64,000 nt of DNA from Peptococcaceae bacterium BICA1-7 (lineage in GTDB: Bacteria > Bacillota > Desulfotomaculia > Desulfotomaculales > Desulfocucumaceae): contig JUEB01000033.1 in the NCBI GenBank assembly GCA_000802095.1, forward strand, positions 310,001 to 374,000, given 5' to 3'. The translations under genes were made by a program, and so were the position numbers. Numbering within the stretch: position 1 is the stretch's first letter; each line of letters opens with the position of its first letter. The notes below the pieces were generated by a model. It saw only the letters and a program-made list of their open reading frames with translations. It was not told where the DNA came from and searched no databases. This document shows, piece after piece, positions 12,987-27,577 of the stretch.

Positions 12987-14276
12987 ATGCCTGCTGAGAG
13001 AAAAACCAAATGGGAAAACATTTCTGATAAGCCCTTTGTTGACGTAAGGGATTTTGGAGCAAAGGGTAATAATGTTCATGATGATACTATCTTTCTTCAA
13101 TTTGCTATAGATTCTTCTCCGGAGGGTAGTTTAATTTATGTTCCTCAGCCTCCGGTTGCATATAAAATCACCAAACCTCTTGTTTTGAGGAATAGAAGAT
13201 TGATGGGAGGTGGTATGAAGGGAACCAAAATACTTCAACATACACCAGCAGCTGATGTGCTTATAGCAGGAGGAAGAATCAGCATATCTGACTTAATTTT
13301 GGGTCATCATGAAACTCCTGTTGGTGTTAGTGTTCCTAATGGTACCGGGATTAAAGTGGATAGGATAATGGATGGCAGTACAATTGAGAGAATCGAGCTT
13401 CTTCATAATACCTGCGGTATTTATTGTAATGAACCGGTAACTGAAACTATAAACTACATTTTTTCCACAACTATAAAAGATATTCGGTTTTACAATTTTA
13501 ACCATGCAGCCATGGATCTACGCGGTTATAATGGTGGTATAACCGGTTGTGTGCTTTCTAATCTATATGCCACAAATAGTGAATCAACCTATGGTGGAGC
13601 TACTTACGGGTTTTACTTTTCATCCTGTTCGGAAATGACAGCTAATCAGCTTAATGTTGAGCAGGGCAGGTACAACATGGGGATTGTGGTGATTTCCTGC
13701 GATAATTTCCTCATGAATAGTATCCACTTTGAGGGATATACACCGGCTCAAACTGAAAAAGCATTTTTTGTTGTAGATGGGATACATACCAAAGTTGTCC
13801 AAATAAATGGCGTAACTATACAGACTTGTATATTTGATGGTGATTTAGCCAGTAATTATGGCATATTAAATATCGGCCAATCTCCGGAAGTATTTATGAA
13901 CGGCCTTGTTACCAGGGACAATATCAGGACAAATGGAGCAACAGTAAGAAGATTTATCGGAGAAAGCAGTGTTTCCAAGGGAGCTGCTATTCGTGCAAGA
14001 GGTTTCAAAATTATTGATAGTATAGTTAATTATGGGGATCTCAATATAGACAAATCCGCACTTCCTGTTCTTAGAGAGTACAATGATTCCCGCTATTATT
14101 GGGAGATCAATGAGAAAAAAAATCTTACCGGAACTGCCGCTCCGGTAAGAGGAAACTGGGGTGTTGGAGATACTGTATGGAATACCAATCCGGTTGCCGG
14201 CGGCTATTTGGGCTGGGTTTGCACAGCGGCGGGCACTCCCGGCACCTGGAAAGCTTTTGGGCTTATAGCAACATGA
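12987..14276 (+). CDS. Right-handed beta-helix (Pectate_lyase_3-type) protein, probably acquired
   Basis: 429 residues. The N-terminus FVDVRDFGAKGNNVHDDTIFLQFAID, then VYVP-like and KPLVLRNRRLMGGGMKGT, is the classic start of Pectate_lyase_3/tailspike beta-helix proteins that bind or cleave polysaccharides. The C-terminus, with NWGVGDTVWNTNP and GWVCTAAGTPGTWKAFG, is the short tail module common in phage tail fibres and exopolysaccharide-associated helices. There is no signal peptide. The start has GGGGAGG 10 bases upstream. The gene is much more AT-rich than its neighbours except at its 3' end, suggesting transfer. It is convergent with and overlaps the end of galE by 73 bp. Confidence 0.75.
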   Translation: MPAERKTKWENISDKPFVDVRDFGAKGNNVHDDTIFLQFAIDSSPEGSLIYVPQPPVAYKITKPLVLRNRRLMGGGMKGTKILQHTPAADVLIAGGRISISDLILGHHETPVGVSVPNGTGIKVDRIMDGSTIERIELLHNTCGIYCNEPVTETINYIFSTTIKDIRFYNFNHAAMDLRGYNGGITGCVLSNLYATNSESTYGGATYGFYFSSCSEMTANQLNVEQGRYNMGIVVISCDNFLMNSIHFEGYTPAQTEKAFFVVDGIHTKVVQINGVTIQTCIFDGDLASNYGILNIGQSPEVFMNGLVTRDNIRTNGATVRRFIGESSVSKGAAIRARGFKIIDSIVNYGDLNIDKSALPVLREYNDSRYYWEINEKKNLTGTAAPVRGNWGVGDTVWNTNPVAGGYLGWVCTAAGTPGTWKAFGLIAT

Positions 14277-15748: not shown

Positions 15749-17275
15749 TCACTTTACACTGATCAGCCTGTGGTCGTCGTAACGAAGAACCCTGCCGTAG
15801 AGTGTAAATGTGATGGCGCCGGCAGAAGGAACCTCAGGAACTTCAACACCCAAAACCATCCCTTTGGGCAGCGGCCCTTTCAGCAAACTCCAGCTTTCAT
15901 TGTTGATGAGGGCATCTTTCCCGGCCTCTATGGTATAGCCATAAGTGGAGTCCATGCCGTCGGTCAGCCACTCAGTGCCTCCGCTGGCCCTTATTACAAC
16001 TTTTTTATCCAGGGAACTTTTCAGCACCAGCACCGGATCGAAAACCGTTTCATTAAGCGCCGAAGACCAACAAGGGAGGGCGCACGAAATATCGGCTGCA
16101 TTTAACGACACCATTGTTTTTTCATAAGGGTGCCAGGAACTGCTTTCGGACACCGGCTTAAGCGGAACACTTATGCCCTGGCGTGGCTCCGCCCTCACCG
16201 TGGTGTACAACCCGTCCGTACTATACTGCAGGTAAAACCTGTGCTTTGCGTCCGGCCCGATTAGGCCGTAATAGGAATCGGGCGTGGAGAATTCCTGATA
16301 CCAGGTGGCCCCTGCGTCCGGGCTTGCATAAGTCCATGACAGCTTAGAACCTTTCGGGTCGGCATCTTCAATCCTGGCTGAGGCTATAAGTAGATTTTTT
16401 GAGCCCCCTACCCCCATGCAGTGGCCCGGAAGCATACCTATTCTTTTCAGGCTGCCGGCCATGTCGTCGATATTGGCGGCATAAATCACCGAGTTGGGGG
16501 AAGAATCACAGCCCCATACAGCCGTTTTCCACGGAATGATCGCGAAGCCCACTGTCCTGAACTGAGGGCTCCCGGTTGCTATGCGCGTCCATTCCAGCCC
16601 GTCATTTGTCGACTTGCTCCAAAAAGTTTCGGTTTCTCCGTCACCGCTTGTCACCATCCAGGTTTTCAGCTCTCTGATATATTTGACCGTGTGCCAATGT
16701 CGTATTTCAGAGGTGTTTTTGGAAATAACAGCCTGCCATGTTTTTCCCCCGTCAGCCGACCTGTAAAGCTTGTACGTGGCGGGGGAGACTATGCCATACT
16801 GGGCAAATATGACTGTCTCTCCATTGCAGTCAAACCCTCCCACCAGCGGATTCCAGCTTTCATCAAGGGTTCGGGTGAAAGACGCCCCCTGATCACCTGA
16901 ATAATACACATCTCCGTTAAGCGCAAACAGCACCACCTTCCCGGAATCTGTTACCACGCCGCCACGGCAAGTAGGAATTCCCGCGGCCAGCGGCCCATTC
17001 CAGGTAGTGCCCCCGTCCAGGCTGCTGTATATATCTCCGGTCTCCATGCACTGAGCGTAAAGGGTGTCTCCAGACACGGCCAGTACGAGATAGGGAAGTC
17101 GGGTGTATTCAAAAATGGTGGTTTTGGATATAACCGGCCCCGGAAGATTACCCTCCCCGGTAACGGCAGGGCCGTCGCCTTTTAACTGCACTAATCCGGT
17201 AGATGCGCTGGCGGGCACTACCATTGGTAATGTCAGCATCAAGGTAACAATAAGAATAATGATTTTTCTTTTCAT
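15749..17275 (-). CDS. Secreted Asp-box (BNR) beta-propeller protein
   Basis: About 508 residues from ATG 17275 (AGGTG upstream); a GTG at 17287 is the alternative. A typical signal peptide (KRKIIILIVTLMLTLPMVVPASAS) precedes repeated Asp-box motifs: SSLDGGTTW, YSGDQGASF, RSADGGKTW, STNDGLEW and SPDAGATW. These mark sialidase-fold or photosystem-II-stability-like propellers, a surface scaffold rather than an enzyme in most cases. The C-terminal 120 residues form a separate, unrecognised beta-rich domain. It is exported and may bind the glycan made by this cluster; that is inference. Confidence 0.75.
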   Translation of the reverse strand: MKRKIIILIVTLMLTLPMVVPASASTGLVQLKGDGPAVTGEGNLPGPVISKTTIFEYTRLPYLVLAVSGDTLYAQCMETGDIYSSLDGGTTWNGPLAAGIPTCRGGVVTDSGKVVLFALNGDVYYSGDQGASFTRTLDESWNPLVGGFDCNGETVIFAQYGIVSPATYKLYRSADGGKTWQAVISKNTSEIRHWHTVKYIRELKTWMVTSGDGETETFWSKSTNDGLEWTRIATGSPQFRTVGFAIIPWKTAVWGCDSSPNSVIYAANIDDMAGSLKRIGMLPGHCMGVGGSKNLLIASARIEDADPKGSKLSWTYASPDAGATWYQEFSTPDSYYGLIGPDAKHRFYLQYSTDGLYTTVRAEPRQGISVPLKPVSESSSWHPYEKTMVSLNAADISCALPCWSSALNETVFDPVLVLKSSLDKKVVIRASGGTEWLTDGMDSTYGYTIEAGKDALINNESWSLLKGPLPKGMVLGVEVPEVPSAGAITFTLYGRVLRYDDHRLISVK

Positions 17276-17306
17276 AATTAAATTCACCTATCCTATTGTT
17301 TTAATA

Positions 17307-17990
17307 TTATGTAGACTCAACCAAGCGGGCAATTACCGTACAGGGGGAGCCGTCTCCGCCGGCCACGCGCAGGGGCAGGACGATCACTCTTTCAACAGTG
17401 CACTGCCCGTCAATCCCTGTCAGGTTCATGTCCTCTATCAATACTATGGGGCTGCCGCCGGCCTGCGGGTCCAGAAAGGCTTTGTGGGCCTCCCTGCCGG
17501 TATCCCTGTTTTTCCAGGAGGTAGCAGATATAAAATCAACCCCGACGGCGCGGATAGATGGAAAGGCAGCCCTGAGGGCGCTTCCCAGCCCCGGGGATAA
17601 GCCGGGGTTATCGCTCCAGTACAGGCTTTCACCAATATATCGGCCCATGCCGGTCTTTATCAGCAGTAATTCGGGTCTGCCCTTAATAAAAGGAATAACG
17701 CTGTCAGGCCCTATTAAGTCGTTTAGCCCGCATTTTACTTCCAGCACCATTACCTTTTCAAAAATCCAAAAAGAAGGTTCAAAAAGATCTACCGGCAGAC
17801 CATCCCGGAAAAAGTGTCTTGGCGCGTCAACATGTGTTCCCAGGTGGTTGGGAAATTCCCACAAGGCGGAATTACAGTGATCACCTTCTTCAATGGACTT
17901 GATCATCCTTACGGATACCGGCTTCCCGCCGCCATATGCCGCAGTTTTTTCGCTCAGAGTGTGGGACAGCCATAAATATCTTGTATTCAT
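17307..17990 (-). CDS. Cyclase family protein (kynurenine formamidase-like)
   Basis: About 227 residues from ATG 17990; an ORF start at 18044 would overlap the next gene and lacks a site. The diagnostic HLGTHVDAPRHF (HxGTHxDxPxH) metal-binding motif is present, with FISATSWKNRD and GIDGQCTVERVIVLPLRVAGGDGSP at the end. Family members are manganese/zinc amidohydrolases such as KynB and isatin hydrolase, but many have unknown substrates. No tryptophan-catabolism genes are nearby, so a role in the polysaccharide cluster is possible but unproven. Confidence 0.8.
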   Translation of the reverse strand: MNTRYLWLSHTLSEKTAAYGGGKPVSVRMIKSIEEGDHCNSALWEFPNHLGTHVDAPRHFFRDGLPVDLFEPSFWIFEKVMVLEVKCGLNDLIGPDSVIPFIKGRPELLLIKTGMGRYIGESLYWSDNPGLSPGLGSALRAAFPSIRAVGVDFISATSWKNRDTGREAHKAFLDPQAGGSPIVLIEDMNLTGIDGQCTVERVIVLPLRVAGGDGSPCTVIARLVEST

Positions 17991-18015
17991 AAGGGCTTTC
18001 TCTTCTTTCCTGTTG

Positions 18016-18774
18016 TTATTTCCGCCGGCAAAATATGTTTTCATGTGCCGAGCAGGCTACTTTTACCGCCCACTTATGACGCCGGGACCTTTCGACACTT
18101 ACCCGGCCGCCGGCAGCTTCAACCAGCGCTATCCCGGCAGCAACGTCCCAAAGCATGATGTCTTCTTCAATATAGGCGTCCACGCAGCCTGAGGCCAGGT
18201 AGGCCAGGGATAGGGCAGCCGATCCCAGCAGGCGGACCTTTTTAAAACTTCTTACCCTGTCCGCAAACCCTACCAGGGAATTAAGTCTGAAATCACGGTT
18301 GACCGGGAACCCTGTGGCCAGCACCGCACGTTCCGGGCTGTCTATACCTGAGACTGAGATGGCCTGGCCATTGCGCCATGACCCCTTCCCCACGATGCCA
18401 GTAAACAGCTGATTGCTGTTGAAATCATAAACCACCCCCAGCACCGGCCTTTCACCCAGCCAGAGAGCTACTGAAACACAGCACAGGGGAATGCGCCTGA
18501 AAAAGTTGACCGTCCCGTCCAGTGGGTCCACTATCCAAAGGGGAGAGCCATCCTCCTGTGTTCCATGCTCTCCGGTCTCTTCGGTCAGAACCGGGTAGCC
18601 AGTGTTTTTTAAAAGACAGTCCAGTATTATACTCTCGGCCTCCCGGTCCGCCTTAAGCCTTATGTCTCTCCCGTCCGAACCGTTGACGGAGCGGCTGCAA
18701 TGAGGGCCCGCCAGGTATTTGCCGGCCTCCCGGGCGGCTATAACGGCAATGTCCAGCTCTTTTTCCCAGTTCAT
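18016..18774 (-). CDS. Inositol monophosphatase family phosphatase
   Basis: 252 residues. The lithium-sensitive phosphatase motifs are present: the acidic LTEETGEHG, WIVDPLDGTVNFFRRIP (first metal site) and MLWDVAAGIALVEAAGG (second site). It hydrolyses a small phosphate monoester, for example inositol, sugar or 3'-phosphoadenosine phosphates. Its ATG overlaps the stop of the 2-hydroxyacid dehydrogenase in an ATGA junction, and the SIS isomerase and aldolase lie nearby. It may therefore dephosphorylate a sugar or sugar-acid intermediate of this cluster. Confidence 0.85.
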   Translation of the reverse strand: MNWEKELDIAVIAAREAGKYLAGPHCSRSVNGSDGRDIRLKADREAESIILDCLLKNTGYPVLTEETGEHGTQEDGSPLWIVDPLDGTVNFFRRIPLCCVSVALWLGERPVLGVVYDFNSNQLFTGIVGKGSWRNGQAISVSGIDSPERAVLATGFPVNRDFRLNSLVGFADRVRSFKKVRLLGSAALSLAYLASGCVDAYIEEDIMLWDVAAGIALVEAAGGRVSVERSRRHKWAVKVACSAHENIFCRRK

Positions 18775-19691
18775 AAGCCTACACCCAGGTCCTTGAGTAA
18801 ATTTTCGGCAGCAGCCGTTTCCATCTCACGGCGGCACTCCCTGGTGTACGTGCTGATATGCGGGGTCAGTAAAACCTGACTGTAATTAATCAACGGGCCT
18901 TTGTAAGGCTCTTCCGGGAAGGCGTCAATCCAGGCGCCGCCCACTATTCCGCTGTCCAGGGCGTCAATAAGCGCCTTTTCATCGATTAGCCCGCCACGGG
19001 CCGAATTTAAAAGGATCACACCTTCCCTCATCAGTGAAAATTCATTTTCACCCAGTATCAACTCATCGCCGCTGGCGTGAAGTGTTATTATACGGGCTGT
19101 TTTAAGCCCCTCCTCCAGAGGAACAAGCTTTTCGCCATCTTTAAGAGAAGAAGCCTCAATGCCGGGATCGGCAACATTTACTTCCGCTCCCAGGGCCTGC
19201 AGCAGCCGGCCCACTTTGCTTCCGGTGCGGCCGTAACCTACCACCAGCACCCTGGTTTTGTACAGTCCCATGGCAAGTATTTTTTGCCATTTTCCATTGT
19301 GCATATCAGCATTTATAGGCAGCAGGCGCCGGCAAACGGCAAGCATGGCGCCGAGGGTCATTTCCGCCACCGCCCGCGCCGGGACCTCAGGTGTATTGGA
19401 TACCTTTATGCCCAGTTCCCGGGCGGCTTTAAGATCAATGTTGGACATTCCTATACCGACCCTGGCGATAGCCTTCAACCGGGGGACCGACTGAAGAACC
19501 CTGCGGGATAAAGGTTCAAGGCCGGCTATCAGCCCGTCCATGCCCTCCAGGTGCCCTATGGCCTCATCCTCAGTGAGGCGGCGTCCCACAGTATTAATCC
19601 TAAGATTGATACCTTTACCGTTTAGCAGCCTTACCGGGGTATCATCCCCTTCACCGAAGGTTGATGTACTTATTGCCACGTTCCAGCTCAT
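18771..19691 (-). CDS. D-isomer-specific 2-hydroxyacid dehydrogenase (phosphoglycerate dehydrogenase-like)
   Basis: 306 residues without an ACT domain. The NAD-binding loop is GYGRTGSKVGRLLQALGAEVNVADP, and the catalytic Arg (NSARGGLIDEKAL), Glu and His (TPHISTYT) are present. Members oxidise D-2-hydroxyacids or reduce 2-keto acids. GGGAGG precedes the ATG at 19691, and the gene overlaps the SIS isomerase by 41 bp. The absence of serine-pathway genes and its position argue for a dedicated role in a sugar-acid pathway rather than serine synthesis; that is inference. Confidence 0.82.
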   Translation of the reverse strand: MSWNVAISTSTFGEGDDTPVRLLNGKGINLRINTVGRRLTEDEAIGHLEGMDGLIAGLEPLSRRVLQSVPRLKAIARVGIGMSNIDLKAARELGIKVSNTPEVPARAVAEMTLGAMLAVCRRLLPINADMHNGKWQKILAMGLYKTRVLVVGYGRTGSKVGRLLQALGAEVNVADPGIEASSLKDGEKLVPLEEGLKTARIITLHASGDELILGENEFSLMREGVILLNSARGGLIDEKALIDALDSGIVGGAWIDAFPEEPYKGPLINYSQVLLTPHISTYTRECRREMETAAAENLLKDLGVGL

Positions 19692-20268
19692 AGCTTTCCT
19701 CCCCCCAGGCCTCCAGGTATTTGTCCAGCCAGCAGTGAAGTATGAACTGGTGCGAAACCTCCACCAGGCCGTAGGTTTTGGCCGGCACGTAAAAATTTAA
19801 ATCCCCCAGCAGGCGTATCTTGTTGTCAGCGCTCATGCCGGACAGGGTGATTACCTGCATCTCTTTTTCCCTGGCAGCCTTAATGCATTTAACAATGTTG
19901 GCCGAATTTCCGGAGCTGCTGATGGCCACCAGTATGTCTCCGGCATTGCCGAATTTAGCTATTGGCAGAGCGAAAGAATCCTCGTAGGACTGATCATTGC
20001 TTATGGCTGTCAGAAGGGCAGTATCGTTGAAGGCCAGGCTTTTGAGTCCGGCGTTTTTGCAGGCGTCGGCGGCCATGTGGCTGGCCATCATGGCGCTGGC
20101 CCCATTGCCTATGAAGTACATGGTGTTATTGGAGCCCGCCAGCCGGCTGGTTTGGCGGCACCAGAGAAGAATACCCTCTTCAATGTTTATTTCAGCCGAC
20201 AGCCTGGTAACAATTACATTTTTCAGTGAAAAAGAAATATCATTGAGGTACTTTCTAAAATATTTCAT
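19651..20268 (-). CDS. SIS-domain sugar isomerase (GmhA/phosphoheptose isomerase-like)
   Basis: 205 residues, the size of GmhA. The SIS phosphosugar pocket is seen in FIGNGASAMMASHMAADAC and AISSSGNSANIVKCI, with LSGMSADNKI after. These proteins isomerise ketose and aldose phosphates, such as sedoheptulose 7-phosphate to D-glycero-heptose 7-phosphate. GGGGGGT precedes the ATG. It is followed by, and overlaps, the dehydrogenase and phosphatase genes, consistent with consecutive steps on a phosphosugar. Exact substrate unknown. Confidence 0.82.
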   Translation of the reverse strand: MKYFRKYLNDISFSLKNVIVTRLSAEINIEEGILLWCRQTSRLAGSNNTMYFIGNGASAMMASHMAADACKNAGLKSLAFNDTALLTAISNDQSYEDSFALPIAKFGNAGDILVAISSSGNSANIVKCIKAAREKEMQVITLSGMSADNKIRLLGDLNFYVPAKTYGLVEVSHQFILHCWLDKYLEAWGEESYELERGNKYINLR

Positions 20269-20272
20269 TTAT

Positions 20273-22498
20273 TTACCCCCCTTTCTTGCTTACATAGACC
20301 TGGCAGGCCCCGTTGCTGTATACCAGATCTCCCTTTGCCAGAATATTTTTGTATAAAGAGGACTGGCTGATATCCACGTAGGTATACAGATCCTTTTCAT
20401 TCTTCCTTATTTTTTGGGGGTTGACGTTGATATCCCGGAGGAATATGTACGACCCTCCCGGCACCCGTTCGGTGTCACCCCACATGCGCCATACCCTGCC
20501 CCAAAGATCCTCGTAAAGAAGCCGGTCTCCGTATATGTCGGCGTATATTTTACTGTCGCCGTTAATTCTTGGGGACAGCCAGTTTTTACCCAGTATTTCC
20601 TGTGTTTTAAAGCGGTGGTAGTCCAGCTCCTGATTAAGCGCCACCGAGGTTGGAGTAGAGCCGGTAACCTCGAAGACAAAACCGGACTGAAACAGGAAAT
20701 AAGGCGCAATTACCAGGCAGGCCAAAATACCCGGGAGAACCCTGTCTCTTTTAAGCGGGGATATCTTTTTTCCCATTAAGCCTGAAATGATATTTATTAT
20801 TTTCTTCCCGCCCAAAATACAAAAAGGTGAGAGAAAAAAAAGGGCAATGTGATAAAACCTGTCTATATTCAATGTTTCCGAGAATTGGGGTATGACCACA
20901 CAGAAGCCCAGCACTAGGAAGACAGACATGCTCATAAATATGTAGGTCCTGTTAAAGCTGCTGTCTTTTATGTTTTTCAGTGTATTAAGGAAACCCGTCA
21001 CTATGAAAAACTGGGTAACGTATTGAACATATCTGGCAATCTTCCATGAGATTTCACCCCCGTGGGTTTTTGACAGGCCTAATGCCTGCAGAACATAAGG
21101 GTTTCTTGACTCGATCTCGAAAATATCCTTCAGGCTGGCGTATATGTGGTCGCCAACCCTCAGGACGTGGTAAAATATGCTTCCTGAGGATATAAAAAGA
21201 TACCAGGTTATGGTCAGCACCAGAAGCAGTGTTATAAAGTTTGCTGTTAGGAAGCCATGAGCCGGATTCCCCCTGCAGCTCAAGCTTTCTTCCCACTCCC
21301 TGCGTATTTTTTTAAGCATTTTAAGCGGCACAGCTGTGGGTATTCTTTTTTCAATCCATGCTGCTGCCGCTGAGAAAACACAGCAGAAACAGAATATGTA
21401 CGTAAGGCTGTAGTGTGATGCCACCATGGAGACAACAAACACCACAATAAGCAGAGCCCTGTGGAAACCTCCGGCTTTAATGTCCAGCAGCAGCATTAAG
21501 AAAAGAACAAGGAACAGCTCGGCAATTTGCTGCCGGCAAAGCGCCGGCATAATGCTGAAAAAAACCACCATGGACATAAAAAGAAAGACGGATAAAAAAG
21601 ACTCCTTTTTACTCACCTGGCATAGATAGATTTCATATAAGGCCAGGGGGACAAAGGAGTATATTACCGGATAGGCCAGCTTGAATACCCACAGGGGATC
21701 CAATCCCGTAAAAATGGAGTATATGGCCGGCAGGACGGTGATGCTCAGCATTGCGTTGTAATCGTTGGATATATGATAATTCCAGTAGCCACTTTGGGTC
21801 ACCAGCTTGAAAAAATAGAATTCGGCGTGCACATCCCCTCCTACTAAATAGGGAGTGATAAGCGACCAGTGCCATAAAAGCGCTATGGCTATCATGACTA
21901 TGGCATACCGGTGGTATTTGGCCTCGACCAGCCTGTCAAGCATAATCAGCATGACTGTGACCGCGATTATGGCAATTAGAAAAAGCAGTACCCTGTTTTC
22001 CTTATAAATGTTGACAGCACTGGCGCCCAGTGCGCTGATTACAGGCAGCAGCGTCAGAAAAAGCAGCTGGTTTAGATCTCTCACCTTCAGGCCCCTAAAA
22101 TATGCAGCCAGGCTAAAACAACCTTCCTCTGGGCTGTCATCTCTCCTTTCCCTGTAATACAAAATGATGGAGGCTAAAAAAGTGGCCAGGTAAATCACGG
22201 GAACTACAGCCTGCCAAAAAGATTCCGGCCTTCCCCCCGCAATACCGGCCATGTTGATGAGAAAGCCCGTAATCAATAGAAAGGACGTGCTTAGGCCAAG
22301 GCTGCACAGCACTCTTTTGGCGCCCTGAAAATTTAGCTTAATTAGCCTGATAATCAGGGTTCCCGGCACAAAGGCAAGGTAAAGAAAACAAATAATTTGC
22401 CTCAGAGGCGAAATGCCCAGATAAATAAGGGCCGGAACCGCCAGATGAAGCGGGAGGAGGAAAAAAAAGAAAAATTTATCAGCTGCCCGGTTAAGCAT
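20273..22498 (-). CDS. Large multi-pass membrane protein (DUF2206-like)
   Basis: 741 residues, with at least 13 hydrophobic helices in the first 600 residues and a soluble C-terminal tail. The overall layout (long polytopic domain, conserved HAEFYFFKLV near the first third, C-terminal extracytoplasmic segment) matches DUF2206 proteins, which sit in archaeal and Firmicute surface-glycan loci and resemble oligosaccharyltransferases or polymerases of the GT-C type. The ATG immediately follows the TAA of the upstream oxidoreductase. A role as polymerase or glycan transferase at the membrane is plausible; no catalytic motif is proven. Confidence 0.65.
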   Translation of the reverse strand: MLNRAADKFFFFFLLPLHLAVPALIYLGISPLRQIICFLYLAFVPGTLIIRLIKLNFQGAKRVLCSLGLSTSFLLITGFLINMAGIAGGRPESFWQAVVPVIYLATFLASIILYYRERRDDSPEEGCFSLAAYFRGLKVRDLNQLLFLTLLPVISALGASAVNIYKENRVLLFLIAIIAVTVMLIMLDRLVEAKYHRYAIVMIAIALLWHWSLITPYLVGGDVHAEFYFFKLVTQSGYWNYHISNDYNAMLSITVLPAIYSIFTGLDPLWVFKLAYPVIYSFVPLALYEIYLCQVSKKESFLSVFLFMSMVVFFSIMPALCRQQIAELFLVLFLMLLLDIKAGGFHRALLIVVFVVSMVASHYSLTYIFCFCCVFSAAAAWIEKRIPTAVPLKMLKKIRREWEESLSCRGNPAHGFLTANFITLLLVLTITWYLFISSGSIFYHVLRVGDHIYASLKDIFEIESRNPYVLQALGLSKTHGGEISWKIARYVQYVTQFFIVTGFLNTLKNIKDSSFNRTYIFMSMSVFLVLGFCVVIPQFSETLNIDRFYHIALFFLSPFCILGGKKIINIISGLMGKKISPLKRDRVLPGILACLVIAPYFLFQSGFVFEVTGSTPTSVALNQELDYHRFKTQEILGKNWLSPRINGDSKIYADIYGDRLLYEDLWGRVWRMWGDTERVPGGSYIFLRDINVNPQKIRKNEKDLYTYVDISQSSLYKNILAKGDLVYSNGACQVYVSKKGG

Positions 22499-23485
22499 TT
22501 AATTGCTTCCGTCCTGGTAAATTCTTTCAACGAGCTGCAGTACTTTCAGCGCGTCAAGGGAGTTTCCCGTGCAAACGGCCTCATTATTGTCTATACACCT
22601 GACAAAATCACTTACCTCACTTTTAAAGGAATCATCCACGAAATAGGTAATCCTGCGTTCCTCGGTCCAGACTGCCTGGGGGGCTTTGGTCCTGTTCTCG
22701 GCCACGGTCATTTGCTCCTTGCCGTAGGTCTGCGAAGGGGTGTTCAGGCCGTTGATGGTGATATACCCCTTTTCCATGAAAACCTCCAGTGAGAATAAAT
22801 TTCTCCACTGGGTCATTGTGGAATGAAGAGAGGCCACCTGTCCCTTTTTATTCCTGAATATAGCAAATACATTGTCCTCGACATCAAGCTGCCAGTACAG
22901 ATTGGAGCAGAAGGACTTCACTTCCTCAAATTGGCCGCAAAACATCAGAAACAGATCGAGCATGTGAATGCCCTGGTCCATCAGGATGCCGCTGCCTGCC
23001 AGGTCTTTCCGGGCCCTCCATGTGCTGTAAAAGTTTTGGTCCACACTCTTGCCGTAGCGGCCGCGCAGCCACAGTATCTTCCCAAATTTACCGCTGTCCA
23101 CCAGCTCTTTGGCGTCCAGAATGCTCTGGTGCCTACGGTGGTTGAATCCGATCATCAGCTTGCAGCCGGGGTTTCTTTGCTCCGCCCCGATAATATCCAG
23201 CACCTGGCCTGAACTGATGCCGGGGGGTTTTTCGCAGAATACGTGCTTTTGGGCGTCAAGCCCCCTTACCACCAGATCTTTAATCAGGTAGTTGGGGGTA
23301 CAGACAAATACCATGTCCACTTCCCTGTCTTCAAATATCACACCGGGATCATATGTATAATTGAAGTCTCCCTCCACCGGGCTGTCGTCACACACCCACC
23401 CGATGGAGCACCCGGGAATCAGGTCGATGGCGTTTTTGCGGATTTTACCCATCTTCCCGTAGCCTATAATGGCAGCTTTATGCAT
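22499..23485 (-). CDS. Gfo/Idh/MocA family oxidoreductase
   Basis: 328 residues. N-terminal Rossmann fold AAIIGYGKMGKIRKNA, the CEKPPG motif carrying the catalytic Lys, and GSGILMDQGIHMLDLFLMF containing the catalytic Asp/His pair. Members oxidise or reduce a carbinol or keto group of a sugar or nucleotide sugar with NAD(P)H. GGGGGAAA precedes the start. It lies 3 bp from the HpaI-type aldolase gene and directly abuts the DUF2206-like gene, so it should act on an intermediate of the surface sugar. Confidence 0.85.
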   Translation of the reverse strand: MHKAAIIGYGKMGKIRKNAIDLIPGCSIGWVCDDSPVEGDFNYTYDPGVIFEDREVDMVFVCTPNYLIKDLVVRGLDAQKHVFCEKPPGISSGQVLDIIGAEQRNPGCKLMIGFNHRRHQSILDAKELVDSGKFGKILWLRGRYGKSVDQNFYSTWRARKDLAGSGILMDQGIHMLDLFLMFCGQFEEVKSFCSNLYWQLDVEDNVFAIFRNKKGQVASLHSTMTQWRNLFSLEVFMEKGYITINGLNTPSQTYGKEQMTVAENRTKAPQAVWTEERRITYFVDDSFKSEVSDFVRCIDNNEAVCTGNSLDALKVLQLVERIYQDGSN

Positions 23486-23488
23486 TTC

Positions 23489-24277
23489 TCAATTTCCCCC
23501 GCTCATGTATTCTTTCACTCCTGCCAGCCCTTTACGGCAGGTGTCGCCCAGGAAAATAATATCGACGCTAAAGGCGATAAAAGTGTAGCCGTTGACCATC
23601 CTGTCGGTCACCAGTTCCCTGTCCGCCGGAACCACGTGGTAGCCTGCAGAAATTCCATGCATTTTGCCGGCCCTCTCAATAGCACCCAATGCTTCCCTGA
23701 AGGCCGGGTGGTCAAACTGCCCCGGCGCCCCAATGGACCCGGAAAGGTCGTAGGGCCCCACAAAAAAAGCATCTACACCTTCTACTGACAGAATCTCATC
23801 AATATTCTTCACCGCGTCTATATGCTCTATCTGCACAACAACAACACTCTCAGCATTGTTCCAGGCCAGGTGCTTTTCAAACGAAGGGCCGTAGGAATGA
23901 GCCCTGGCTATGCCAACGCCGCGGCTTCCCAGCGGGGGGTATTTTACTGCGGCAACGGCGCGCTCTGCATCGCTCCTGGAGTTGACCATGGGGACCACAA
24001 CCCCGTGCGCCCCCATATCCATGGCTTTTCCAATCAGTTTTGCGTCGTTTTTTCCCACTCTTACCAGAGGCTCACAGCCGGAAAGCTCAATAACCTGTAT
24101 AAGCTGCTGGGCCTGGTCTGTGCTGATGGCGCTGTGCTCCATGTCAACGGTCAGCCAGTCGAATCCGGCCGCCGCCATGATTTCCGCAATGCACGGGTGT
24201 CCCAGAGTAATCCAGGAACCCAGTGTCAATTCACGGTTCTTCAGTTTGGACTTTAAGCTGTCTCCGGGGCTGTTCAT
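23489..24277 (-). CDS. HpcH/HpaI family class II pyruvate aldolase
   Basis: 262 residues, standard for HpaI. Active-site features are in place: WLTVDMEHSAIS with the catalytic His, PLVRVGKND with the pyruvate-binding Arg, VVVQIEHIDAV with the metal-ligand Glu, and DAFFVGPYDLSGS with the metal-ligand Asp. The family reversibly joins pyruvate to an aldehyde to give 2-keto-3-deoxy-4-hydroxy acids. In a glycan cluster beside a cytidylyltransferase, the synthetic direction (making an ulosonic-type acid) is an attractive inference. It overlaps the preceding gene by 47 bp. Confidence 0.87.
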   Translation of the reverse strand: MNSPGDSLKSKLKNRELTLGSWITLGHPCIAEIMAAAGFDWLTVDMEHSAISTDQAQQLIQVIELSGCEPLVRVGKNDAKLIGKAMDMGAHGVVVPMVNSRSDAERAVAAVKYPPLGSRGVGIARAHSYGPSFEKHLAWNNAESVVVVQIEHIDAVKNIDEILSVEGVDAFFVGPYDLSGSIGAPGQFDHPAFREALGAIERAGKMHGISAGYHVVPADRELVTDRMVNGYTFIAFSVDIIFLGDTCRKGLAGVKEYMSGGN

Positions 24278-25616
24278 ACTGCAACACCCTTCCTAACCTT
24301 TTATTCAGAGCCGGGACAAGAGACGGCGTCAGTGATATGTACTTTTTGCCCATTGACTCTCCCATTGCCACTATTTTTTCCACGTCCTCACAGTATTCCT
24401 TATAATTCCTGTCGTAAAGAGAGTCATAAAAAAAGCCCGGATGAGTCCGGTAGGCGGACTCCATCAATTCTGTAAACTGGGACTTTGAGCTGTGCTTCCA
24501 AAAGTATTTTTCACCGGGCCTCCTTCCGTCCGCGCCAATTATATAAATCTCTTCGCACTGCGAGGACGCCACAGGGAGCATAAAAAGCGGCAGTATACTG
24601 TTGGCCACGGCCACGTAAAAACTGTCCTCCGCCGGGAAATTGTACCTGTCCCGGTTTCCTGAAAGTCTCAGGAAATAGTTCTTCACTGTTTGTAATATAG
24701 AAGAGTCCCATATTCCGGGAACCTTCATGCCTATTATTCTTTCCTCAAGCTGAGGGTAGTGGGCCAGCAGCAGTGCCACGTTGTAGTCGGGCACCATTAC
24801 AAAGCAGTCGTATTTTTTAACAGCCTCCAGCACCAGCCTTCTGAATTCTGCGGCGTAAAGGCAGGGGCTGAAGTGGAAAACCGGGTCCGCGAAACAAATC
24901 AGGTGGGGCCGGATATGGGCCATCAAATCCCCGTTGTTCACAATGCTGTTGCAAATAACCCGTATGCCGTCGCTGAAGTCATACTTGAAGGAACTTTCCA
25001 CCGAGGGCCCGGTGCAAAAAACATAACCCTTGCGCAGGCCGCATCCGTGTGCGGCAAATTTCCGGTAATTACTCATTGACAGAGACCTTAACTTTTCTTT
25101 TTCCCCCTCTGTCAGGGCCCTGTCATACAGGCGCCTGTACACGGTGCTTTCCAGTGAGAGGTAGCCTGTGGGGTCAACTATGTCGGCTTTGTGTATATGT
25201 CTTATTACCTCCAGATCAAGGGCGCTTTTCCCATTCCAAATCAACACAGCCCCGCACCTGCCCAGGCCCGGCCTGTCTCCTACCAGGCGGATATCAGCTT
25301 TTCCCCCGGTATAGCAATGTTGTGAGGCAGGCGGCAAAATGCTTTTTAAGTCTGTTCCCAGGAGCTGCCTGCCGGCAACAATATCTATCCTGATCTTCAA
25401 TGACCCGGAGGAAGGCAGGTACCAGGAGACCCTGTTGACTATATCCCCCAGTGTTTCGGCGTCGTTCACCGCAGGGTACAGCACAAAATGTCTGCAGACC
25501 CGGCTATCCCCTTTGAAAAACAGCCTGGCAAGCTCTTTCAGGCCGTAGTACCCGTAGGCTGCCGATTTGCGCAGAAAAATACTGGAAAGCCTTCTCGGCG
25601 CGGTAGCGATACTCAC
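24231..25616 (-). CDS. DUF115/Maf- or sialyltransferase-like protein of unknown function
   Basis: Start taken as GTG 25616 because it makes a GTGA overlap with the stop of the cytidylyltransferase; GTG 25625 is also possible. The protein is about 461 residues. The middle (about 200-330) has GYVFCTGPSVESSF, RVICNSIVNN and IRPHLICFADPVF, a pattern like the nucleotide-binding G-x-GPS...N...PD..v..Dp of DUF115 (Maf flagellin nonulosonate transferases) and GT42-type sialyltransferases. No signal peptide. Its position directly after a CMP-sugar-type cytidylyltransferase makes it a candidate transferase for that sugar. The resemblance is by eye only. Confidence 0.5.
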   Translation of the reverse strand: MSIATAPRRLSSIFLRKSAAYGYYGLKELARLFFKGDSRVCRHFVLYPAVNDAETLGDIVNRVSWYLPSSGSLKIRIDIVAGRQLLGTDLKSILPPASQHCYTGGKADIRLVGDRPGLGRCGAVLIWNGKSALDLEVIRHIHKADIVDPTGYLSLESTVYRRLYDRALTEGEKEKLRSLSMSNYRKFAAHGCGLRKGYVFCTGPSVESSFKYDFSDGIRVICNSIVNNGDLMAHIRPHLICFADPVFHFSPCLYAAEFRRLVLEAVKKYDCFVMVPDYNVALLLAHYPQLEERIIGMKVPGIWDSSILQTVKNYFLRLSGNRDRYNFPAEDSFYVAVANSILPLFMLPVASSQCEEIYIIGADGRRPGEKYFWKHSSKSQFTELMESAYRTHPGFFYDSLYDRNYKEYCEDVEKIVAMGESMGKKYISLTPSLVPALNKRLGRVLQYEQPRRQLKVQTEEP

Positions 25617-26344
25617 CTGCCGCACCCCGCTTTATATCTGACAAGCATTTCAGCCAGCCTGAAATCCTGTTCCTCATCTATGTCCACGGCCTCAAGCCTG
25701 TCCATCATAAACATCTGCGGCCTTCTGCCAATCCTTCTCCCGCAGGGTATAAAGGATGACCTCGAGAATAAATAGATATTCGAATTCTCCTCGTAGACCG
25801 GCTGCAAATCCTGAGTACGCGCCAGCTTCTCAGGGTCGTGGTTTATTTCCCCGCCGTCCGCCCGGTATAGCCGGGTCCTCAGACAGTTGACCGAAAAAAG
25901 AGAGTCGTATTCTTCCAGTCCTCCGAAATATGCCTCCACGGCCCCGTTTATTGTGGAGTGGTCCAAAAGAGGATTGGTGCTGTGGGTCTGCAAGAAATGT
26001 TCGCCCCCAACCTGTGTTAAATCATAGGCTATTATCTCATTGGCCGAAATGTGATCCCCGCATATATGCCCGGGCCTTCTTATAACGGTTATGTCATTGA
26101 AGTTTTGAGAGATGTCGCCGGCTATTTCCTCACTGTCGGTGTTTATGACTATTTTTTTAACGTACCGGCATCTCTTAAGGCTCTCCACGATCCAATGGTA
26201 AAGAGGTTTTCCGTTCAAGTCTCTCAGGTTCTTGCCGGGAACGCGCTCGCTGTGCCCTTTCATCGGCACCAGCGCTATTACCCCTGAATCTGCCATGTTT
26301 TTTCCCGCAGGCGCGGGCACTGCATCTATGCCCCACTTCAACAC
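25613..26344 (-). CDS. Acylneuraminate/Kdo-type cytidylyltransferase
   Basis: 243 residues, the length of NeuA/PseF enzymes. The N-terminal nucleotide-binding signature ALVPMKGHSERVPGKNLRDLNGKPL is the CMP-sugar synthetase form of the loop; VINTDSEEIA, TNPLLDHSTINGAVEAY and IDEEQDFRLAEMLV follow as in the family. These enzymes activate sialic, legionaminic, pseudaminic or Kdo-like 2-keto acids with CTP. The start is GTG 26344 with GAGAGGG 7 bases upstream. No NeuB-type synthase is present in the cluster, which is unusual for a nonulosonic acid locus. Confidence 0.85.
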   Translation of the reverse strand: MLKWGIDAVPAPAGKNMADSGVIALVPMKGHSERVPGKNLRDLNGKPLYHWIVESLKRCRYVKKIVINTDSEEIAGDISQNFNDITVIRRPGHICGDHISANEIIAYDLTQVGGEHFLQTHSTNPLLDHSTINGAVEAYFGGLEEYDSLFSVNCLRTRLYRADGGEINHDPEKLARTQDLQPVYEENSNIYLFSRSSFIPCGRRIGRRPQMFMMDRLEAVDIDEEQDFRLAEMLVRYKAGCGR

Positions 26345-26374: not shown

Positions 26375-27577
26375 TTACCGGTAAAACCTGATTACTCTCG
26401 GGGTCCTCATGCAATTTTTTACAGCCTCCAGGGATCCCTCCAACTCCGACACTATCTCCGGGTGTTCCACCAGTACAACCAGCAAATCGGCGTTTTGGGC
26501 AACCTGGCATATGGAATCAAACTCCCGCCCGGCAACTCTGGGATCGAAAGCCTGCACCGTATACCCCTCGCCCCTGAGCATTTCTATTATCCTAAGCGCA
26601 GGGCTGTTCCTGGTGTCATTGGTTCCAGGCTTGTACGTCATGCCCAGGGCCACAATGTGCGGGTCCCTGATATCCCGCACCGCCTTCCTTATTTCCGCGG
26701 CTATTCTTTCCGGAATACTCTCGTTAATCTCCCGGGCGGTATGAATAAGCTTGGTGTTGACGGGGTCAACCTCCTTTATAAACCACGGGTCAACCGGTAT
26801 GCAGTGTCCCCCGGTACCGATGCCCGGGCTTAGCACGTTAACTCGCGGGTGCTGGTTGGCCAGATAAATGGCTTCCATCACATTCACACCCAGAGTGCTG
26901 CAAACAGCGGCTATTTCGTTGGCCAGTGCAATATTCACATCCCTGTACGTGTTTTCTATCAGCTTGATAAGCTCGGCGGTAATGTCATCGGTAACAAATA
27001 TTTGGCCCTTTACGAAGTTGTTGTAAATATCCCTGGCCATCAGTGCGGACTGGCGGTTTATACCGCCTATAACCCGGTCATTGCTTATTATTTCCTGTAT
27101 AACCTTGCCGGGCAGTATTCTCTCAGGGCAGTGGGCCAGATAAATGTCCTCACCCACTGTCAGCCCGCTCTCACTTAGTATGGGAATTATTGTCTCCCTG
27201 CAGGTCAGGGGGGGGACTGTGGACTCAACTATTACCAGGCACCCTTTATGTAAAAAGGGAACAATTGACCTTGCCGCTGCATTTACGTAGCTCAGGTCTC
27301 CAATCCTTTTTCTCTCGTCAATTGGCGTGGGTACGGAAATTATGTAGACATCAGCCTCACACGGTTTTTCCCTGGCTGAAAATCTTCTGGTGAGGTCTTC
27401 TCTTTTCAGCAGCGAGATTATTTCCGGCTCACTGTCCAATGCCCCGTTGTTAACCGACTCCACCACTTTGCTGTCTACGTCGACCCCCACCACCTCATAG
27501 CCGGAGGCGGCAAGCATAACCGCCAGGGGAAGCCCCACGTAGCCTATCCCCATTACAACTATTTTATCGGCTGACAA
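26375..27577 (-). CDS. wecC: UDP-sugar dehydrogenase (WecC/UDP-N-acetylmannosamine dehydrogenase-like)
   Basis: 400 residues. The N-terminal Rossmann motif GIGYVGLPLAVMLAASGYEVVGVD, the hinge with ENTYRDVNIALANEIA, and the catalytic cysteine in GIGTGGHCIPVDPWFI identify the UDP-glucose/UDP-ManNAc dehydrogenase family; the GGHCIPVDP form is commonest in WecC-like enzymes. It oxidises C6 of a UDP-sugar to the uronate in two NAD steps. The TTG start has GGGAGGT 8 bases upstream and overlaps the preceding epimerase gene by 14 bp. The UDP-HexNAc versus UDP-Glc choice is not certain. Confidence 0.87.
   Translation of the reverse strand: MSADKIVVMGIGYVGLPLAVMLAASGYEVVGVDVDSKVVESVNNGALDSEPEIISLLKREDLTRRFSAREKPCEADVYIISVPTPIDERKRIGDLSYVNAAARSIVPFLHKGCLVIVESTVPPLTCRETIIPILSESGLTVGEDIYLAHCPERILPGKVIQEIISNDRVIGGINRQSALMARDIYNNFVKGQIFVTDDITAELIKLIENTYRDVNIALANEIAAVCSTLGVNVMEAIYLANQHPRVNVLSPGIGTGGHCIPVDPWFIKEVDPVNTKLIHTAREINESIPERIAAEIRKAVRDIRDPHIVALGMTYKPGTNDTRNSPALRIIEMLRGEGYTVQAFDPRVAGREFDSICQVAQNADLLVVLVEHPEIVSELEGSLEAVKNCMRTPRVIRFYR

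Follow-up and report, generated by a model that had tools for sequence, protein, structure and literature searches.

The window analysed here, a stretch of 64,000 nucleotides from Peptococcaceae bacterium BICA1-7 (contig JUEB01000033.1, positions 310,001 to 374,000), carries a minus-strand operon in which an HpcH/HpaI-type class II pyruvate aldolase (HpaI) is encoded together with a NeuA/PseF-type cytidylyltransferase. The operon probably encodes a phosphoenolpyruvate (PEP)-independent route to a cytidine monophosphate (CMP)-activated ulosonic acid, i.e., a 2-keto sugar acid, for a surface glycan. The basis of this assignment is the gene content, the operon, the catalytic residues, the recurrent linkage of the genes, including in viruses, the separate phylogeny, and the host assemblies that contain neither NeuB nor KdsA. 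The formation of CMP-activated 2-keto sugar acids is ascribed to PEP-dependent synthases, and the presence of NeuB or KdsA is taken as the genomic marker of such acids. No published description of an HpaI aldolase and a cytidylyltransferase in one sugar pathway was found in the open-access literature.

The operon consists of nine genes in the order cytidylyltransferase, 464-residue protein, HpaI, Gfo/Idh oxidoreductase, DUF2206 protein, SIS-domain isomerase, 2-hydroxyacid dehydrogenase (HADH), IMPase-family phosphatase, and cyclase (Table 1). Neighbouring genes overlap or lie at most 5 bases apart and are translationally coupled, and hence form a single operon. An earlier, sequence-only reading of this DNA had placed six enzymes (cytidylyltransferase, HpaI, isomerase, phosphatase, HADH, and Gfo/Idh oxidoreductase) in one minus-strand run; all six are indeed encoded there by complete, intact open reading frames (ORFs) with Pfam matches well above cut-off. 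The 464-residue ORF, the DUF2206 protein, and the PF04199 cyclase are three further members. All operon proteins except the 464-residue one pass the curated Pfam cut-offs, and signature motifs are retained in the phosphatase, the dehydrogenase, the Gfo/Idh enzyme, the isomerase, and the cytidylyltransferase. The NCBIfam equivalog models matched by the nine proteins all score well below their cut-offs; therefore, a characterised orthologue cannot be assigned to any enzyme of the operon.

Table 1. Genes of the proposed ulosonic acid operon and the adjoining upstream gene, in positions of the window.
Feature	Position	Strand	Supporting match
NeuA/PseF-type cytidylyltransferase, 243 aa, proposed CMP-ulosonate synthetase	25613..26344	-	PF02348 (CTP_transf_3) 95.8 bits
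464-aa protein, putative DUF115/MptE-Maf-like glycosyltransferase, candidate CMP-sugar user	24231..25625	-	no Pfam match itself
HpcH/HpaI-type class II pyruvate aldolase, 262 aa, proposed to form the C-C bond	23489..24277	-	PF03328 128.6 bits
Gfo/Idh/MocA oxidoreductase, 328 aa	22499..23485	-	PF22725 (GFO_IDH_MocA_C3) 93 bits / PF01408
DUF2206 polytopic membrane protein, possibly polymer/glycan assembly	20273..22498	-	PF09971 215 bits
SIS-domain sugar-phosphate isomerase, GmhA-like, proposed maker of aldose-phosphate acceptor	19651..20268	-	PF13580 (SIS_2) 62.6 bits
D-2-hydroxyacid dehydrogenase (HADH), phosphoglycerate-dehydrogenase-like, 306 aa	18771..19691	-	PF02826 (2-Hacid_dh_C) 134.7 bits / PF00389
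IMPase-family phosphatase, proposed sugar acid phosphate dephosphorylation	18016..18774	-	PF00459 (Inositol_P) 168 bits
PF04199 metal-dependent cyclase/hydrolase, closing the operon	17307..18044	-	PF04199 50 bits
UDP-ManNAc-type nucleotide sugar dehydrogenase, just upstream of the operon	26375..27577	-	TIGR03026 392.6 bits

The HpaI belongs to the HpcH/HpaI class II family, far above the family cut-off of 25 bits. As had been claimed from the sequence, its active site is complete, with His48, Arg73, Gln149, Glu151, and Asp177 in the alignment to YfaU and RhmA of E. coli. The equivalog cut-offs of HpaI, GarL, and RhmA are missed (182, 162, and 153 bits against 369, 407, and 441 bits, respectively), and YfaU, GarL, and HpaI are nearer relatives than the hydroxyketoacid aldolase 6r62. 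The cytidylyltransferase is closer to PseF and NeuA than to KdsB and scores 86.4 bits with the PseF model against a cut-off of 205.7. In CNS of N. meningitidis, the metal site is formed by Gln104, Asp209, and Asp211, with which Gln119, Asp221, and Asp223 of the window enzyme align (PMC2901514). Both aspartates are invariant and the glutamine nearly so in the cytidylyltransferase alignment; together with the PF02348 match, these residues identify a CMP-ulosonate-type cytidylyltransferase with an intact metal site.

The closest PDB relatives of the SIS protein are phosphoheptose isomerases, and the GmhA cut-offs are missed (95.7 against 276 for PRK13936 and 85.5 against 209 for TIGR00441). The HADH contains the Arg-Glu-His motifs, with phosphoglycerate dehydrogenase 1wwk as its closest PDB relative, and the phosphatase contains the DPLDGT and WDxAAG motifs. 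Among the cellular HpaI loci described below, relatives of the Gfo/Idh enzyme occur in 8 further loci and a relative of the DUF2206 protein in L008. The PF04199 cyclase, which is arylformamidase-like, recurs in the module at L006, L007, L009, L014, L015, L017, L019, and L026.

The 464-residue protein itself matches neither PF01973 nor, in a profile search, any entry of the PDB. However, homologues occupy the same site, flanked by the cytidylyltransferase and HpaI, in L008, L009, and L015, and the L015 homologue approaches PF01973 (E 1.7e-5, 25.1 bits, under the gathering cut-off of 34.6). In related loci, proteins of cluster c50 pass PF01973, and an unambiguous DUF115 protein there lies between the cytidylyltransferase and HpaI or close to them. 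The best PDB match of the AlphaFold model is the Maf glycosyltransferase 5mu5 (E 8e-4); the mean predicted local distance difference test score of the model is 54.6, and the fold match is therefore a hint only. The protein is a putative CMP-sugar transferase, which is its likely role.

Taken as a pathway, the SIS isomerase would produce an aldose phosphate from a ketose phosphate, and the HpaI-type aldolase would join the aldose phosphate to a 2-oxo acid, most likely pyruvate, yielding a phosphorylated 2-keto-3-deoxy sugar acid. This acid would then be dephosphorylated by the IMPase-family phosphatase and receive CMP from the NeuA-type enzyme, and the DUF115/Maf-like protein would transfer the sugar. 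The HADH, the Gfo/Idh enzyme, and the cyclase presumably prepare the donor or the acceptor, or modify the product. The direction of the reaction, the donor, the acceptor, the product, and the role of the transferase are inferred by analogy with the pathway of 3-deoxy-D-manno-octulosonic acid (Kdo).

In profile searches of the genome contigs, neither NeuB nor KdsA was matched in the window or anywhere on contig C33, which carries it, in agreement with the earlier claim that no such synthase is encoded at the locus. For KdsA, nothing in the genome exceeds the model cut-off. Kdo synthesis for lipopolysaccharide was rejected on this ground and because the KdsB cut-offs lie far above the scores of the NeuA-type enzyme. 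A NeuB elsewhere in the genome, which the sequence-only reading had named as evidence against an aldolase route, does exist, in two true copies on contigs C18 and C26 (322 and 296 bits, respectively). However, each copy is accompanied by a separate cytidylyltransferase: on C18, a NeuA-type enzyme lies 2.4 kb away, and on C26, at a distance of approximately 5 kb, lies a PF02348 protein that fits the KdsB-like profile better than NeuA; simple dependence on NeuB was thus rejected. The window cytidylyltransferase is the third strong PF02348 protein of the genome, and no PEP synthase adjoins it.

The two NeuBs nevertheless lend some weight to an explanation in which the cytidylyltransferase activates an ordinary NeuB-made nonulosonic acid and HpaI is an accessory enzyme that trims, recycles, or degrades 2-keto acids. 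We consider this unlikely, given the partner enzymes of both NeuBs and the assemblies G041, G043, G045, and G050 (loci L006, L008, L010, and L015), which contain the cytidylyltransferase–HpaI pair and in which neither KdsA nor a NeuB above the DAHP-synthase background was detected. Apart from the HpaI-linked enzyme, G041 and G043 contain no PF02348 protein.

The pair is recurrent in cells. In a cellular set of 80 loci, obtained by an HpaI scan of species-representative genomes with clustering of the ORFs, a PF02348 gene lies within 3 kb of HpaI in 67 of 79 loci by profile count, and near none of the six most distant HpaIs. The pair occurs in Chloroflexota, Bacillota, Omnitrophota, Pseudomonadota (mostly Nitrosomonadaceae, hence redundant), Thermodesulfobacteriota, Elusimicrobiota, Planctomycetota, Verrucomicrobiota, and Walliibacteriota, as well as in a Hadarchaeum, whose locus on a short contig contains HpaI and a KdsB-like enzyme without HADH. 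That catabolic and glycan genes came together by chance within a variable polysaccharide locus would be conceivable, as such loci are mosaics with many sugar enzymes, but it is highly improbable for a pair that is found repeatedly, in some ten or more phyla as well as in viruses, often directly adjoining, and not with the distant HpaIs.

The slot of the cytidylyltransferase is filled either by a NeuA-type enzyme (cluster c15, 14 loci) or by a KdsB-type enzyme (c3, 54 loci). The latter scores 161.7 bits with CTP_transf_3, has KdsB as its closest PDB relative, and is the version carried by the cultured ammonia oxidisers Nitrosomonas and Nitrosospira. With HADH present in 64 of the cellular loci, the constant core comprises the cytidylyltransferase, HpaI, and usually HADH. 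The remaining part varies between an isomerase–phosphatase–Gfo/Idh set (L012, L018, and L078, as in the window) and an SDR epimerase with a HAD phosphatase. The six genes of the sequence-only reading are therefore no fixed set, since the SIS, IMPase, and Gfo genes are exchangeable. In L009, also from Peptococcaceae, a single run contains NeuA-type (cut by the contig end) and KdsB-type cytidylyltransferases together with the 464-residue homologue, HpaI, HADH, cyclase, HAD, and SDR genes. Some modules additionally contain a 3-dehydroquinate-synthase-like gene with SDR and Gfo/Idh genes (L008:13516-14598, L010:7545-8606, and L017:5613-6701).

Phylogenetically, the linked enzymes stand apart. The HpaI tree gathers the cellular cytidylyltransferase-linked enzymes in a single clade (support 97), separate from GarL, YfaU, and HpaI and from unlinked archaeal enzymes, and the cytidylyltransferase tree separates HpaI-linked from NeuB-linked enzymes (support 98). 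In an unseeded sample of 398 genomes from the phylum to which the window belongs, the clade of its cytidylyltransferase is clearly represented by the window enzyme alone; nearly all other short-flank matches scored higher as NeuA, and many lie beside NeuB or NeuC. Among 400 genomes of Chloroflexota, the phylum of G043 with its Dehalococcoidia locus L008, the clade is present in 39, made up of G043 and G045, where it occurs with HpaI, and a further 37. The HpaI-less proteins fall almost entirely in a single subclade nested among the HpaI-linked ones, and this Chloroflexota subclade is the main exception to the pairing. Its conserved locus (L187-L206) places HADH (20/20), DUF115 (19/20), and SDR (17/20) genes beside the cytidylyltransferase, and cytidylyltransferases of this type occur in approximately 9% of the 400 sampled genomes.

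The module also extends to environmental viruses. A scan of IMG/VR with HpaI returned 54 loci, and a scan with the cytidylyltransferase returned one, L186, which carries HpaI, SIS, and HAD genes as well. In the resulting table of 54 loci (53 found by HpaI, plus L186), a cytidylyltransferase lies within 5 kb in 34 and directly adjoins HpaI in 17, accompanied by SIS in 21, HAD in 20, HADH in 12, and NeuB in only 2, the last count arguing against supply by NeuB. In L230, L231, L232, L241, and L243, a GT29 gene (PF00777 above cut-off) is followed by the cytidylyltransferase, HpaI, and SIS genes. GT29 enzymes use CMP-sialic acid as a substrate, and these viral runs thus point to a CMP-sugar product.

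As a viral control, 80 islands were picked by GDP-mannose dehydratase, some being near copies and some cut at the edge; this query replaced earlier controls that were too small (three loci with the window's own epimerase and none with GalE). The cytidylyltransferase is present in 6/8 HpaI-bearing islands versus 5/72 others (Fisher 4e-5, with partly redundant loci), and in 10/11 islands with GT29 versus 3/69 others. Named phages gave only two weak matches, in unannotated records labelled Staphylococcus phage. In one viral contig, an HpaI homologue (L216:1427-2272) is situated between the genes for the terminase large subunit and the portal, and in another, a fusion of HAD phosphatase and nucleotidyltransferase domains (L225:9072-10472) lies near a cytidylyltransferase–HpaI pair.

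The placement of an aldolase in the position of NeuB or KdsA is thus favoured by the linkage in many phyla and viruses, by assemblies with neither synthase, and by the separate clade, while substrate, donor, and direction are inferred. Several points weigh against it. The same cytidylyltransferase is found in 37 Chloroflexota genomes, with an HpaI-less context in the 20 examined; HpaI is therefore not obligatory for it. Window-type HpaI is present in 0/20 of these examined genomes, 17 of which gave no HpaI-family match and 3 only distant ones. NeuB also lies nearby at the cellular loci L018, L026, L067, and L073 and the viral loci L240 and L258. The cellular and most of the viral loci were picked by HpaI, which renders the linkage counts one-sided, and the absence of NeuB and KdsA from the four assemblies, for which completeness is not given, may be an assembly gap. 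HpaI-family aldolases are best known as catabolic enzymes, and the route proposed for HpaI is read from genes. Finally, HADH, the commonest additional partner in cells, fits no clear step, and may supply hydroxypyruvate or act on the acceptor.

The Chloroflexota sample also bears on supply by NeuB, which was found in 34/37 genomes with the HpaI-less context versus 31/361 genomes without the cytidylyltransferase (Fisher 1e-27, uncorrected for ancestry), and not in G043 or G045, the two HpaI-bearing clade members. This association arises where HpaI is missing. We read the pattern as an exchange of HpaI and NeuB, in either direction, as the supplier for related cytidylyltransferases, which describes it better than an accessory HpaI, although shared ancestry confounds the comparison.

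HADH itself gives rise to two further explanations. In the first, the 2-keto acid arises when HADH oxidises an aldonic acid or a comparable 2-hydroxy acid, the cytidylyltransferase activates this 2-keto acid, and HpaI belongs to another branch. The same-strand position of HADH near the cytidylyltransferase in all 20 HpaI-less loci agrees with this, as does its frequency in the cellular HpaI loci, but few viral loci contain HADH compared with those that contain a nearby cytidylyltransferase, and the Hadarchaeum locus has none; we regard it as very unlikely. The second is a variant of the aldolase route, in which HpaI uses hydroxypyruvate or phosphohydroxypyruvate from HADH, leading to a non-deoxy (Ko-like) ulosonic acid. 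The similarity of HADH to phosphoglycerate dehydrogenases, its frequent proximity to HpaI in cells, and the occurrence of 6r62 among the HpaI relatives are consistent with such a donor; however, YfaU, GarL, and HpaI are closer, HADH is missing from most viral sets, and no residue test separates the donors. This variant is a doubtful but not negligible refinement, and pyruvate is retained as the donor in the proposed route.

Compared with the Kdo pathway (KdsD, KdsA, KdsC, and KdsB), the module shows the same logical order of SIS isomerase, three-carbon extension, phosphatase, and CMP transferase, and many of its relatives contain a KdsB-type enzyme (c3). However, KdsA is missing and the HpaI aldolase is located at the place of chain extension; moreover, the phosphatase is of IMPase type in the window and of HAD type in others, and the hosts include Gram-positives and an archaeon. 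With the nonulosonic acid pathways (NeuB/NeuA, LegI/LegF, and PseI/PseF), the module shares a NeuA/PseF-family cytidylyltransferase and neighbours that resemble glycosyltransferases (cells, DUF115/Maf type; viruses, GT29), but the window locus has no NeuB, and its cytidylyltransferase lies in a separate clade below the PseF cut-off. Lacking a PEP synthase, the module is not a member of either pathway as defined, although it would work alike. The window HpaI has the fold family and all active-site residues of the class II pyruvate aldolases HpaI, GarL, and RhmA; it differs in its separate clade, its scores under the equivalog cut-offs, and its position among glycan biosynthesis rather than catabolic genes. 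N-acetylneuraminate lyase (NanA), which chemoenzymatic synthesis employs in the synthetic direction, is likewise a pyruvate aldolase that yields a 2-keto-3-deoxy sugar acid, as proposed for the window HpaI. NanA, however, is an unrelated lysine Schiff-base aldolase that is catabolic in cells, whereas the window HpaI is metal-dependent and encoded beside a CMP transferase.

Around the operon, the upstream nucleotide sugar dehydrogenase serves the same glycan locus in a different, UDP-sugar step. Window positions 15749-17287 encode a 512-residue, secreted-looking protein with repeated Asp-box-like motifs (SxDxGxTW), as judged by eye. Positions 12987-14276, on the strand opposite to the glycan genes, encode a 429-residue protein that resembles, by eye, a pectate-lyase-type tail-spike or glycan-binding beta-helix.

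In its widest form, the proposal would be an undescribed PEP-independent CMP-ulosonic acid route in environmental viruses, about a dozen bacterial phyla, and one archaeon or more, using hydroxypyruvate or phosphohydroxypyruvate supplied by HADH and giving products unlike the 3-deoxy acids of NeuB and KdsA; in this form it is speculative and rather improbable. If the route exists, surveys based on NeuB and KdsA would miss sugar acids in many phyla and viruses, and glycan biosynthesis would be a natural function of reversible pyruvate aldolases. It would also offer new enzymes and acidic sugars that could be tested directly, including in Nitrosomonas and Nitrosospira.

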